Origin: Parabacteroides chongii
GTDB taxonomy: Bacteria; Bacteroidota; Bacteroidia; Bacteroidales; Tannerellaceae
DNA length: 64,000 nt
Reading direction: 5' to 3'
NCBI RefSeq assembly: GCF_029581355.1
Contig: NZ_CP120849.1
Span: 1,706,501-1,770,500, forward strand
In this document: positions 29,255-53,656 of the stretch, one piece after another
Position numbering within the stretch: position 1 is the stretch's first letter
Layout of the letters: every line of letters begins with the position of its first letter
The notes under the pieces: model-generated
Databases searched by the model: none
What the model was told of the DNA's origin: nothing
The model's input: only the letters and a program-made list of their open reading frames with translations
Position numbers and translations under genes: made by a program

Positions 29255-29818
29255 TTAGATAATGAAAACAAAGAGAGGGAGATAGTCCTTTAGCTCAACT
29301 TTCAGTTTACGTATAGCGGTTACAATGTGGTTTTGCACAGTATGGACGGAAATATCCATTTGTGTGGCTATCTCTTCATATTTTAAGCCGTTCATTCTGC
29401 TCAGAATGAACACCTGCCGGCATTTCTCCGGCAGGTGTTCGATTGCTTTAGCCAGTAAGTCTTCTATTTCCTTCTCCGTAAAAATATTTTCATCGAATTG
29501 CATCAATGCCTCCATTTTTAATTTTAGTTCTCTTTCCGGAAGGTTATCCAGCGATTCATTCTTGCTGTCTATGAATGTTTTGTGACGATAGAAATCAATA
29601 CATCTGTTTTTTGTCAGAGTAAACAGAAAGGCATTCGGATTGGTCAGGGAATCCAGCATATCCCGGTGTTCCCAAAGATACATGAAAATATCCTGTACGA
29701 TGTTTTCCGCATCTTCAATAGATATTACATATTCCCGTGCAAAACGTACAAGCTTAGGAAAATAGATCAGATAGATTTTTGAGAATGTAGCATTCTCTAT
29801 TCCTGAGAGTTGTGTCAT
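29255..29818 (-). CDS. ECF sigma-70 factor (PUL A)
   Basis: 187 residues. Region 2 (FSKIYLIYFPKLVRFAREYV through DAENIVQDIFMYLWEHRD, about 10-65) and region 4 (LPEKCRQVFILSRMNGLKYEEIATQMDISVHTVQNHI, about 130-170) are both complete; region 3 is absent as in all ECF factors. It would direct RNA polymerase to the PUL A promoter when FecR lets go. Its ATG overlaps the TGA of the HU-like gene as ATGA (29815-29818), so translation of the two is coupled, an unusual arrangement for a PUL sigma factor. Confidence 0.95.
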   Translation of the reverse strand: MTQLSGIENATFSKIYLIYFPKLVRFAREYVISIEDAENIVQDIFMYLWEHRDMLDSLTNPNAFLFTLTKNRCIDFYRHKTFIDSKNESLDNLPERELKLKMEALMQFDENIFTEKEIEDLLAKAIEHLPEKCRQVFILSRMNGLKYEEIATQMDISVHTVQNHIVTAIRKLKVELKDYLPLFVFII

Positions 29819-30423
29819 ACCTCCTCCTTTCCCTTTACAGATACATATAATACAGTTTTTCCATGGCCGAGTTTTTTTATTTTCTCATCTTCGATCAACT
29901 CGTTCAGATCGCGTATGGTAGTGGAACGGTTACATCCGTTCAAACGCATATATTGTGCAGCCGTAAAGTATTCTTTCCCTTCCATAGAGTTCAGCATCCG
30001 ACCTTTACGTTGTTCCGGAGAATAACGAGTAGCTCCGGCTTGCGAATCGCGTTCCAGGTCTAGGGGTTTCAACTGTTCTTTCAACTTTTTGCTTCCTTTA
30101 AAATGGACATTATTGAAATGTACTGACCAAGAACGTAATTCCTTCTTGTCCATTACCGGACGGCATTTCAGCGAGATAGAGAATGAGCCGAGATCATCCA
30201 GTTCCACAGTATATCCTCTACGTAGGTTCTTGGAAATCACTTTTGCCAGAGCATCCAGCATTCCTTTGGTCGTAGCCGTGGAATAACCACAGCTATCGGC
30301 TATCTCTTCTGCAATTTCCGGTGTACGGATTGTCCCTTTAGGCACGATTCGAGCATGTAGAGGCTGTTTCTTCCCATCTTTTCTGGGATTAGGATTCTCA
30401 TATAAAGCGTATTTAGCTCCCAT
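29815..30423 (-). CDS. HU-related DNA-binding protein with C-terminal winged-helix-like extension
   Basis: 202 residues. The first 120 match the longer HU-related family of Bacteroidales (HU_rel): LHARIVPKGTIRTPEIAEEI, then RRGYTVELDDLGSFSISLK, which is the beta-arm region. A separate C-terminal part (about 140-202) reads as a helix-turn-helix (YFTAAQYMRLNGCNRSTTIRDLNEL) with a beta wing (GKTVLYVSVKG), so the protein could combine DNA bending with sequence reading. It is the first gene of the PUL A regulatory operon and overlaps the sigma gene by 4 bp. Its predicted leader carries four 22-bp-spaced TATCACAGYTG elements, a plausible autoregulatory target. No function is established. Confidence 0.85.
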   Translation of the reverse strand: MGAKYALYENPNPRKDGKKQPLHARIVPKGTIRTPEIAEEIADSCGYSTATTKGMLDALAKVISKNLRRGYTVELDDLGSFSISLKCRPVMDKKELRSWSVHFNNVHFKGSKKLKEQLKPLDLERDSQAGATRYSPEQRKGRMLNSMEGKEYFTAAQYMRLNGCNRSTTIRDLNELIEDEKIKKLGHGKTVLYVSVKGKEEV

Positions 30424-30463
30424 AATAATTTCTGGTAAAAGGTTATTTAACAGTTTTATTGCA

Positions 30464-30551
30464 TATCACAGCTGTGTTTCTTTCATATCACAGTTGGATT
30501 CCGTTTGTATCACAGTTGAGTTTCTTTTGTATCACAGCTGTGATATGAATA
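30464..30551. repeat. Four direct repeats at an exact 22-bp period upstream of the HU-sigma operon
   Basis: TATCACAGCTG, TATCACAGTTG, TATCACAGTTG and TATCACAGCTG begin at 30464, 30486, 30508 and 30530. The rest of each unit is similar in the first three (a GTTTCTTTT-like tail). The last extends to a 16-bp palindrome TATCACAGCTGTGATA (30530-30545). A decayed fifth copy (TATTGCAGTTT at 30666, preceded by TTCCGTTTG) lies nearer the divergent sigma gene. Two helical turns between elements put them all on one DNA face, as in cooperative operator or iteron arrays. The array lies 41-122 bp before the HU-like ATG. Confidence 0.85.
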
Positions 30552-30562
30552 GGGAATCAATA

Positions 30563-30570
30563 CAAATGTA
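30563..30570 (-). promoter_or_regulatory. Predicted -7 box of the HU-sigma operon
   Basis: The minus strand reads TACATTTG. Initiation near 30556 would place all four 22-bp repeats in the first part of a leader of about 133 nt, a position suited to repression by a bound protein. No good -33 element is seen. Confidence 0.4.
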
Positions 30571-30717
30571 CAATATATTCCAGTAAACCCATACAGTCTG
30601 CGGGGTAATTTAATCTTGCAGGAGGGTAATTGATGCTATCTCCCTATTATATTTGGTTCCGTTTGTATTGCAGTTTGGGATATTTATGTAAGTTTGTATT
30701 GTCTATACTATATAACA

Positions 30718-31266: not shown

Positions 31267-31279
31267 ATTGGGTTTCATT

Positions 31280-31325
31280 CGGACGAAAAAGTAGTTTCAT
31301 TCGAATGAAATTTTTTTTTCGTCCG
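31280..31325 (+). other. Nested inverted repeat between sigma and FecR genes of PUL B
   Basis: Outer arms CGGACGAAAAA (31280-31290) and TTTTTCGTCCG (31315-31325) enclose a second perfect palindrome TTTCATTCGAATGAAA (31295-31310) that is followed by nine Ts. The inner part alone looks like an intrinsic terminator after the sigma gene; the outer arms could form a competing fold. It may set the sigma to anti-sigma ratio. Confidence 0.65.
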
Positions 31326-50950: not shown

Positions 50951-52063
50951 ATGAAACTTCTATCTGCATCGACATTCAGCGGCGGGGGATTGATCCCTGC
51001 CGCTGAATTGATCACATTAAGGAACCGTAACGGTCTTGTCGCCCAGTTCACCGATTACGGTGCACGTTGGGTAAGTATGTGGGTACCCGACCGGGAGGGT
51101 CGCTTGTCGGATATCGTGCTTGGGTTCGATACGATAGACGGTTACCGGACGGCAGGGGAGAGATACCACGGTGCTATCGTCGGTCGTGTCTGCGGACGGA
51201 TCAGTAATGCCTGTTTCCGGATAGGAGGGCAGGAGTATCTGTTAGCTTCCAACGATGTGTACGGTACACCTGTTCGTAACCATTTACACGGTGGAATCGA
51301 TGCTTTTCACAACCGTTACTGGAAATTCCGTACATATATTTCTCCTTCCGGAGAGGAAGCCGTCGAGTTCACAAATAATTCACAAAGCGGTGAAGAGGGC
51401 TATCCGGGCAACCTGCAAGTGAAGGTTACTTACCTGTTGAAAGCGGACAATACCCTGCGGATGGAATGCGAAGCAACGACCGACCATCCGACTCCTGTTA
51501 ATATGACCAATCATGCTTTCTTCAACCTGCAATCTCCTTCCGCTCCGGCAGAGAGGAAAAATGTCTTATCCCATAACCTGACTCTGAACGCTTCTGCTAT
51601 CATAGAATGCGACGGTGAATTAATTCCTACAGGCCGATTGTTACCGGTAGACGGAACCTCGCTCGACTTTCGTTCGCCCCGTACCATTGTCTCGTCATTG
51701 GTTGAGGAACATCCGCAGATACAAAAGGACAAAGGTTTCTCCCTGGCCTATGCCTTGGATATCTTGGATACCAAAGAACCCGAAGAATTGAGCTTTGCCG
51801 CCCGTCTGTCTGATGATCTTTCCGGAAGAATGTTGGAAATATATACCAACCAGCCCTCCGTCCAGGTGTATAACGGTTATTTTATGGATGGTACGGACAT
51901 CGGGAAAGGTAATACCCCTTACTATGCCAGTGCAGGTATAGCCATTGAAACACAGGGCTATCCGGATGCGCCTAACCAACCGGCTTTCCCCTCTATCCTG
52001 ATAGATGAGGCAAAGAAGTATCGCCATATCACCGAATACTGCTTCACGAACGTGAGCCGGTAG
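50951..52063 (+). CDS. galM: Aldose 1-epimerase (galactose mutarotase)
   Basis: 370 residues, no signal peptide, so cytoplasmic. Mutarotase hallmarks: FTDYGARWVSMWVPDREG, GAIVGRVCGRI, NHLHGGIDAFHNRYW, the catalytic His in MTNHAFFNL and the catalytic Glu in IAIETQGYPDAPNQPAFPS. It interconverts beta- and alpha-galactose for the Leloir kinase. It is the last gene of the galactoside operon and the clearest sign that galactose is the sugar delivered by the transporter 10 kb upstream. Confidence 0.95.
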   Translation: MKLLSASTFSGGGLIPAAELITLRNRNGLVAQFTDYGARWVSMWVPDREGRLSDIVLGFDTIDGYRTAGERYHGAIVGRVCGRISNACFRIGGQEYLLASNDVYGTPVRNHLHGGIDAFHNRYWKFRTYISPSGEEAVEFTNNSQSGEEGYPGNLQVKVTYLLKADNTLRMECEATTDHPTPVNMTNHAFFNLQSPSAPAERKNVLSHNLTLNASAIIECDGELIPTGRLLPVDGTSLDFRSPRTIVSSLVEEHPQIQKDKGFSLAYALDILDTKEPEELSFAARLSDDLSGRMLEIYTNQPSVQVYNGYFMDGTDIGKGNTPYYASAGIAIETQGYPDAPNQPAFPSILIDEAKKYRHITEYCFTNVSR

Positions 52064-52588
52064 CCACGAGAAAAATAACTTTCTACACAAAGTTTTTAGA
52101 AAAGTATCTGTCATCTGTCATTCGTTGATGTAACACGTAGTCATTCAGTGGATAAGGGCGTGACAGATGCTTTTTTTATCTGCAACGGAGTCTGTCATCT
52201 GTCATCAGTGCTGCTAAAAGACTATCTGTTAAAAGGCAGACAACTACGTGTTAAATCCCGACAAATTAGGAGTAAAGTCCCTATTTAGTAAAACCACCCT
52301 GTACAGGGGAGTTAGCCAGGGTGTAGAGGGTAGTCACGCAGGGCGTACAGCGTAATCAGCTATGGTGTACAGGGTAGCAACAAAATATAAGCACTTAACA
52401 CATAGTTCCTCCTTTCTTAACAGGTAGTATCTCCTTTATCAACGATTAAAAGGGGGAGGGAAGGCTGTTAGTATATGCTGTTTGTCGGCATGGCAATTGC
52501 TTTTTATTGATAATAAATATACTTACTATTCTTATCCATCCATTAATTATGTATATTTGCGAATTACGTAACATAAAAACGCTTAATT
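52064..52588. repeat. Non-coding region with 22-bp-periodic degenerate repeats
   Basis: 525 bp without a gene. From 52227 to about 52446 short motifs recur every 22 bp: TGTTAAA at 52227 and 52249, then AGTAAAG at 52271; TGTACAG, TGTAGAG, CGTACAG and TGTACAG at 52300, 52322, 52344 and 52366; TTAACACATAGT and TTAACAGGTAGT at 52395 and 52417. All fit one 22-bp register of about ten units. Upstream are two copies of TCTGTCATCTGTCAT (52107, 52191), an inverted piece of it (GTGACAGATG, 52160) and inverted TAACACGTAGT (52131-52141 against 52242-52252). It resembles a decayed minisatellite or repeat element. Confidence 0.8.
52552..52559 (+). promoter_or_regulatory. Predicted -7 box of the PDDEXK nuclease gene
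   Basis: TATATTTG (TAnnTTTG) 29 bp before the ATG at 52589 and downstream of the 22-bp-periodic tract, so the gene has its own promoter separate from the galactoside operon. Confidence 0.5.
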
Positions 52589-53656
52589 ATGAAAAAATTA
52601 GATTCAAAATCCATGGCAGAGAATAATGATCAAATAATAGACTCTCACTCTTTTGATTTTATCAAAGAGATAAAATGCATCATTGATGCAGGTAGAACTA
52701 CGGCTTATGCAGCAGTGAATACGGCAATGATTACTACCTATTGGAATATAGGCAGGCGTATCGTGGAAGAAGAACAGCATGGAAAAGAGCGTGCCGAATA
52801 TGGTAAGGAATTGATTAAAATGCTTGCTCAGGAACTGACACATGAGTATGGGAGTGGATTTTCCGATCGTTATCTACGGGCATTCCGACAGTTTTATATA
52901 ATAGTCCCGAATTATGAGATTTGGAAATCACGATTTCCAAATCTTACCTGGACGCATATATACCAAACTCTTCGGGTCGGGGATGAGGCGGCTGTCCGCT
53001 GGTATCTGGAAAACGCATCGCAGCAAATGTGGAGCGTACGTACATTGAGCCGGAATATCTCGACACAATATTATGAGCGTCATTTTAAGCAGCCGATATT
53101 ATCTGAAGAAAATATGAAAGCGGCTGTTCCGCAGAAAGAAGAAATCCTGAAAAGTCCGTTAGTGGCAGAGTTTCTCGGTTTTAAATCTGATGAAAGTTTT
53201 TCAGAGCGCAAGTTGGAATCTAGTATCATCACACATTTGCGAGACTTCCTAATGGAGCTTGGACGTGGTTTTGCCTTTGTTGCCCGACAGCAACATATTC
53301 GCACTGATGCCGAGGACTATTTCATTGATCTCGTATTCTATAATGTAGTACTGAAATGTTATGTGCTCGTGGACTTGAAAGTCGGAAAGATAACGCATCA
53401 AGACGTAGGGCAGATGGATATGTATGTACGTATGTATGACGAACTGAAACGAACGGAAGGTGATAATCCGACCATTGGAATTGTTCTCTGTTCGGAAACA
53501 GACGCAGACATTGCGCGCTATTCAATACTGAAAGGCAACGAGCAGATATTCGCGACTAAATACAAACTCTATCTCCCCACCGAAGAACAGTTGCGACGGG
53601 AGATAGAAAGACAAAAAGAACTTTATCTGTTGCAACATACACAAATAAAGGGGTGA
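52589..53656 (+). CDS. DUF1016/YhcG-family PDDEXK nuclease
   Basis: 355 residues. N-terminal DUF1016_N helical domain (about 30-175: IDAGRTTAYAAVNTAMITTY, YGSGFSDRYLRAFRQFYIIV, VRWYLENASQQMWSVRTLSR) and a C-terminal PDDEXK-type nuclease domain (about 205-340) with FIDLVFYNVVLKCYVLVDLK, which supplies the Asp and the D-x-K pair. Related genes often sit in type I restriction loci or stand alone as suspected defence or selfish genes, but no hsd genes are present here. Flanked by a repeat-rich region and by a terminator. Confidence 0.9.
   Translation: MKKLDSKSMAENNDQIIDSHSFDFIKEIKCIIDAGRTTAYAAVNTAMITTYWNIGRRIVEEEQHGKERAEYGKELIKMLAQELTHEYGSGFSDRYLRAFRQFYIIVPNYEIWKSRFPNLTWTHIYQTLRVGDEAAVRWYLENASQQMWSVRTLSRNISTQYYERHFKQPILSEENMKAAVPQKEEILKSPLVAEFLGFKSDESFSERKLESSIITHLRDFLMELGRGFAFVARQQHIRTDAEDYFIDLVFYNVVLKCYVLVDLKVGKITHQDVGQMDMYVRMYDELKRTEGDNPTIGIVLCSETDADIARYSILKGNEQIFATKYKLYLPTEEQLRREIERQKELYLLQHTQIKG

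Follow-up and report, generated by a model that had tools for sequence, protein, structure and literature searches.

The subject of this study is a four-unit array with a 22-base-pair (bp) step in a 64,000-nt stretch of Parabacteroides chongii DNA (the window), situated in front of a gene for an HU-like protein with a predicted winged-helix tail. Arrays of this kind go with tailed genes of the HU-HIG family, and their repeated words follow the similarity of the adjacent proteins. Judging from these sequence comparisons, it is probable that the arrays are operators bound by the gene's own HU-winged-helix protein, which would thus act as an autorepressor.

Array and Protein in the Window

The word TATCACAGYTG was searched for over the whole window (for the window's own organism, the pattern counts cover these 64 kb). 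Exact matches start at 30464, 30486, 30508 and 30530 on the forward strand and at 30535 on the reverse strand, the last one being the other half of the palindrome formed by the final unit (30530-30545), a perfect 16-bp dyad TATCACAGCTGTGATA. Tandem Repeats Finder independently reports a 22-bp array at 30455-30542, and the lag-22 score of the stretch upstream of the HU gene is above that of 100/100 dinucleotide shuffles. This confirms what the preliminary description had reported, namely a quartet of this word at a 22-bp step with a 16-bp palindrome in its last copy. With at most one mismatch, the window holds five matches in total and no further site of the word, vs. a shuffle mean of 1.86, with 4 of 100 shuffles reaching five; what lies beyond chance is the exactness and the 22-bp register of the array, rather than the number of matches. 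The remaining three units retain one strong half-site (CTGTGATA, read in gene orientation), and the outer units are mutually inverted, with arms at 30462-30476 and 30533-30547. The strict 22-bp step stands as described, but its equation with exactly two helical turns needs correction, since 22 bp correspond to approx. 2.1 turns and in two subfamilies of the related proteins surveyed below the pitch is 21 bp (22 bp in the others).

The adjacent gene encodes a member of the HU-HIG family: its protein matches PF18291 over residues 1-125 (E 1.4e-35, 122.5 bits, with a cut-off of 26.2) and also the NCBIfam model TIGR01201 (HU_rel). The AlphaFold2 model (mean predicted local distance difference test (pLDDT) 84.3, predicted template modelling score (pTM) 0.55) consists of an HU domain and then a winged-helix-like tail, whose predicted C-terminal elements (helices at 136-147, 155-162 and 166-178, strands at 182-185 and 192-195) follow a helix-helix-wing pattern. 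When this model was submitted to Foldseek, HU/IHF structures ranked first (6n2l, 5lvt and 1ihf), and DIP2311 (3lmm) was found at E 1.4e-3; the tail alone reaches E 0.0013 and 19.4 bits against PF22168, which is under the cut-off of 27. By prediction, an HU domain is fused to a winged helix-turn-helix (HTH), as in the HU-HIG family description.

Read in the orientation of the HU gene, the TACATTTG box (30570-30563) is followed by the array (30545-30464), 40 bp and the ATG at 30423. The form TAnnTTTG is given as the -7 consensus in an excerpt of PMC7366714, and the array falls within the predicted leader of the HU gene, behind the gene's own -7-like box. The features of the window are collected in Table 1.

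Table 1. Features of the window related to the arrays (positions in the window; ECF, extracytoplasmic function).
Feature	Position	Strand	Evidence or remark
Gene of the HU-HIG protein with predicted winged-helix tail, 202 aa; proposed array binder	29815..30423	-	PF18291, TIGR01201, AlphaFold2, Foldseek
ECF sigma factor gene	29255..29818	-	Start overlaps HU stop by 4 bp; same predicted operon
Four-unit 22-bp array	30464..30545	-	Promoter-proximal unit 30530-30545 is the 16-bp dyad
Predicted -7 box TACATTTG (TAnnTTTG) of the HU gene	30563..30570	-	Sequence
Predicted -7 box TAAGTTTG of the divergent sigma gene (ATG 30718), separate from the array	30689..30696	+	Sequence
Second four-unit 22-bp array, word (A)GGGTGTACAGGG-like	52300..52376	.	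Between codirectional genes 50951-52063 and 52589-53656

Survey of HU-HIG Genes

Tailed genes were picked by length (at least 185 aa) or by profile A1 built from them, independently of arrays, in a sample of Parabacteroides and other Bacteroidales. This gave 74 genes (from the window, P. faecis and the genomes G001-G003, G014, G026, G033, G044, G062, G065, G068-G070 and G072-G081, where G001 is P. gordonii), while the tail-less set comprised 38 HU-HIG genes of 120-184 aa. Five of the 42 matches outside G001 and G002, which have an in-frame stop or are fragments, were left out, and five HU-type loci below 120 aa belong to neither group. The best upstream lag of the tailed genes (range 12-40) is 22 bp in 56 and 21 bp in 10 (66/74 together), and all 100 dinucleotide shuffles are beaten by 63 of the 74 tailed genes vs. 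5 of the 38 tail-less ones (Fisher p 7e-14, a value that overstates independence because many of the 74 are orthologs). This association, together with words that follow protein similarity, speaks for the earlier suggestion of an operator-like arrangement on one DNA face, with the adjacent HU-like protein as candidate ligand.

Regarding distribution, P. gordonii has 54 HU-HIG matches, 12 of them tailed. A tailed or partial match is present in 16 of 21 genomes of the genus sample (E 1e-30), the order sample (E 1e-20) has a match in 7 of 60 genomes, including the centre G001 and G037 (132-aa protein only), and a family search around G033 returned three genomes and no new case. Upstream of four single tailed genes (L116, L124, L134 and L137), two adjacent arrays with different words can be seen by eye, perhaps sites of the gene's own and of a foreign regulator.

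Anatomy, co-divergence, promoter boxes and RNA folding were analysed on 62 of the 74 tailed genes (score at least 12). Folded on their pitch, 52 of the 62 arrays have dyad symmetry at p < 0.05; 57 are even-centred, and most are rows of about four dyads. Exact TAnnTTTG boxes lie 21-30 bp before the array start 24 times over the 62 arrays, vs. approx. 0.37 expected. At the level of sequence, these are in-phase repeated dyads at the putative regulator's own predicted promoter, with the window group being only partly dyadic.

The words differ from paralog to paralog, including those within one genome, and arrays are the more similar the higher the identity of the tails (Mantel r 0.55, and 0.39 for pairs below 50% identity; p 0.002 with 500 permutations). 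When local scores are compared (approx. 15% of the pairs below 30% identity were sampled), the excess at 50-70% tail identity (27 pairs) equals 13.6 for the array, 3.85 for the sequence before it and 0.64 for that behind it, while above 70% (10 pairs) the flanks are similar as well. The Mantel values for tail and HU domain are equal and favour neither of them as the determinant of the word.

One scan of genome contigs gave four relatives. A 22-bp array of altered spelling occupies the same place in P. gordonii (87%), P. faecis (88%) and a Parabacteroides metagenome-assembled genome (MAG, L003; 76%), with TGTGGTATG in four of four units of P. gordonii, TGTGATATG in three units and TGTGAAAC in one unit of P. 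faecis, and mostly TGTGAAAC in the MAG. The fourth relative, from P. chinchillae (39%), has a different 22-bp word. Both sigma genes are retained beside the ortholog of P. gordonii; P. faecis (L002) and the MAG retain the array before the HU gene with neither sigma operon adjacent, and therefore the array travels with the HU gene.

Arrays Elsewhere in the Genomes

Periodicity was scanned in the intergenic segments of 1.2 Mb of P. gordonii (score at least 16, lags 15-40), with 17 segments found at lag 22, among them those of tailed HU-HIG leaders, 12 at lag 23, 3 at lag 24 and 0-3 at each other lag. Whole-genome searches were performed with five words, and the array counts include the own leader. 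For the L058 word in P. gordonii, 24 of 25 hits fall within 6 arrays (reversed control 1); for the L062 word, 20 of 22 within 3 arrays (control 5); for the L187 word in G073, with two mismatches allowed, 37 of 38 within 7 arrays (control 8); and for the L131 word in G033, 29 of 30 sites within 8 arrays of 2-4 units (control 0). The window-group word has all 9 exact hits within 3 arrays, and with one mismatch 4 of its 29 hits are in array register (control 22). Besides its own leader, each of the five words has 2 to 7 further arrays in intergenic DNA, and the sites are scattered over the chromosome contigs.

The 22 inspected arrays outside the own leader lie between codirectional (12), divergent (4) or convergent genes (3) or have no assigned orientation (L259, whose left side is masked, L279 and L280), and the open reading frames (ORFs) that overlap them are short ones only, judged spurious (97 aa, L265; 106 aa, L266 array). 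The preliminary description had held that arrays at random places would speak against its reading, and this was found in part: the further arrays are intergenic in all orientations and are not confined to the vicinity of HU genes.

A weaker link to polysaccharide utilization loci (PULs) comes from the two further arrays of the window-group word in P. gordonii: one precedes a DUF6528 gene that has ECF sigma, FecR-like and SusC-like ORFs after it, and the other lies between GH31 and GH2 genes. Judged by eye, the second array of the window itself (52300-52376) has a word similar to that of the array leading the HU-HIG gene of L071 in P. gordonii. A two-unit TTTCATTCGAATGAAA-like dyad (31272-31325, lag 22, score 14) separates the divergent sigma gene from its FecR gene, and an array of the L058 word (L261) is likewise placed between sigma and FecR genes.

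Arrays of other pitch were also seen. Palindromic 23-bp arrays (L095:13312-13396, L205:7792-7867 and L108:11933-12020) follow three HU-DNA_bdg/DUF4469 genes at 13-39 bp from the stop codon, and a similar TTGACGG..CGTCAA word lies between efflux genes (G001 C1:3056017). The three 24-bp intergenic arrays, which are all those of the 1.2 Mb scan (G001 C2:21294, 54247 and 71502; L220, L221 and L222), are located 20-24 bp behind genes beginning MAEKTILTVDLYDN; the L220 gene, the only one of the three checked with Pfam, has HU-DNA_bdg and DUF4469. Arrays of 23-bp pitch also follow some tail-less HU-HIG genes (L029, L039, L068 and L085), again at 13-39 bp from the stop codon.

Proposed Mechanism and Alternatives

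In the mechanism that we propose, each HU-winged-helix protein would recognise its own row of units and in this way control the gene that encodes it, as well as a few copies of the row scattered elsewhere. Protein dimers would bind side by side on one DNA face and repress the own operon, with the tail presumably reading the word and the HU part bending or packing the DNA between units. Transcription may be blocked by the bound dimers at its start or in early elongation, and the dispersed arrays could be other binding sites of the same protein, i.e., a small regulon or anchors of DNA architecture. A wider interpretation is put forward tentatively, with the odds somewhat against it: the HU-winged-helix paralogs and the 22-bp four-dyad arrays would form an orthogonal protein-DNA code in which each paralog owns a word, represses itself through its leader array and is directed to a small number of dispersed anchors. 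The expanded HU family would then be a set of private, sequence-addressed nucleoid architects that spread by copying of leader arrays, with the HU-DUF4469 proteins, whose stop codons are followed by 23- and 24-bp arrays, as a possible sister system.

Several observations weigh against operators of this kind. The transcription start of the HU gene is a prediction, and in symmetry the window group is an exception: the folded arrays of the window, P. gordonii (L055) and P. faecis (L002) are not significantly dyadic, while that of the MAG is (p 0.033), thus three of the four lack significance. Array similarity correlates with HU-domain identity (Mantel 0.54; 0.37 for pairs below 50%) as highly as with the tail, and joint inheritance of gene and leader could yield part of the correlation. 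Five tail-less genes have a significant signal (L033, with a 7-bp repeat, L066, L067, L071 and L121), and 11 of the 74 tailed genes have no significant 21/22-bp signal (L041, L075, L118, L120, L125, L129, L130, L136, L170, L177 and L191), with 42-45-bp signals in some of these. The 22 inspected further arrays display no promoter preference, and the word GTTTCACCTAGGTGAAAC, present in four 22-bp arrays (G001 C1:32763, C1:444678, C2:149168 and C2:764162), has no assigned HU gene.

Repeats of the REP/RAYT (repetitive extragenic palindrome with its associated transposase) or MITE (miniature inverted-repeat transposable element) type are intergenic palindromic copies at several genome places. The arrays resemble them in having dispersed intergenic palindromic copies, some with common flanks, but differ in the 22-bp-pitch core, in the word shared with one HU-HIG leader and in the companion, which is an HU protein. 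We consider it unlikely that the arrays are dispersed repeats of this kind, spread as copies of HU-HIG leaders, with the HU protein as binder, silencer or passenger and gene control being secondary. Such spreading would fit the exact 14-nt flank AGCCATCCATTTTC common to 7 of 13 sites in G002, the copy of L150 in the same genome, behind which a short remnant of the start of an HU-HIG gene can be seen by eye, the G033 copies that align with their own leader far beyond the array, the homologous flanks of L262 and L263 in inverted orientation, and the arrays between convergent genes. However, the leader arrays, unlike their flanks, keep a fixed position and are conserved between distant paralogs, and most L058-word arrays of P. 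gordonii have little flank sequence in common.

A role of the array as RNA, where the transcribed leader would form hairpins that govern read-through or translation, whether or not the HU protein takes part, is improbable. The array position is predicted as transcribed, and the sense strand folds with a mean z of -4.87 (below -2 in 81% of the 62 arrays); however, the antisense strand is as structured (z -5.09), which dyads require, and the window array itself folds weakly (z -1.41). Complementary double changes across the axis (26 vs. 21.2 by shuffling) are in no clear excess, with double changes of any kind numbering 54 vs. 28 if independent, and in 32 of the 57 even-centred arrays the central 4-mer is self-complementary, which does not suit a loop.

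It is very improbable that another DNA-binding protein reads the arrays and that the HU protein is a mere target gene. Some words have no assigned HU gene, and the HU protein is a putative binder; however, the words differ between paralogs of one genome and track the relatedness of the adjacent protein, and therefore a single common binder is unlikely. The claim of the preliminary description that the array lies between two divergent sigma operons, so that a single binding event would govern both PULs, can practically be set aside, since, although the divergent geometry is present in the window and in P. gordonii, the array sits in the HU leader behind the HU promoter box rather than between the two predicted promoters, a separate TAAGTTTG box precedes the divergent sigma gene, and P. 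faecis and the MAG keep the array though neither sigma operon adjoins.

Relation to Known Systems

HU is the textbook sequence-neutral nucleoid protein, yet there are 54 HU-HIG matches in a P. gordonii genome. The window protein belongs to the HU-HIG family (PF18291; TIGR01201) and has the HU fold, while its winged-helix-like tail, tied to a private array, sets it apart. Classical autoregulatory tandem operators of HTH repressors are in-phase dyads before the regulator's own gene, as is also the case here; unlike these, the present arrays have approx. four dyads at a strict 21/22-bp pitch behind a predicted promoter and recur in many paralogs under new words, and their putative reader is joined to an HU domain.

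Iterons are direct repeats of 17-22 bp (22 bp in the plasmids R6K and pPS10), to which winged-helix Rep initiators bind in a cooperative, face-dependent manner, according to an excerpt of PMC4980987, among whose references an autorepressor Rep appears. By analogy, the arrays may work like a cooperative iteron-type array. Unlike plasmid iterons, they consist of dyad words and are located on the chromosome, in gene leaders and in intergenic DNA, and the adjacent protein is of the HU-HIG family; the family scan of the adjacent protein revealed no Rep, with HU and sigma-type families only, and because the companion protein is no Rep, the array is not an iteron system. No description of these arrays was found in the titles and abstract openings returned by searches of open-licence literature; subscription literature was outside this search, so novelty in print is not established.

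If each winged-helix-tailed HU protein reads a private word, its cognate sites and candidate regulon could be listed directly from the arrays and then tested; the pairs of repressor and operator might even be orthogonal to one another and of use in gut Bacteroidales.
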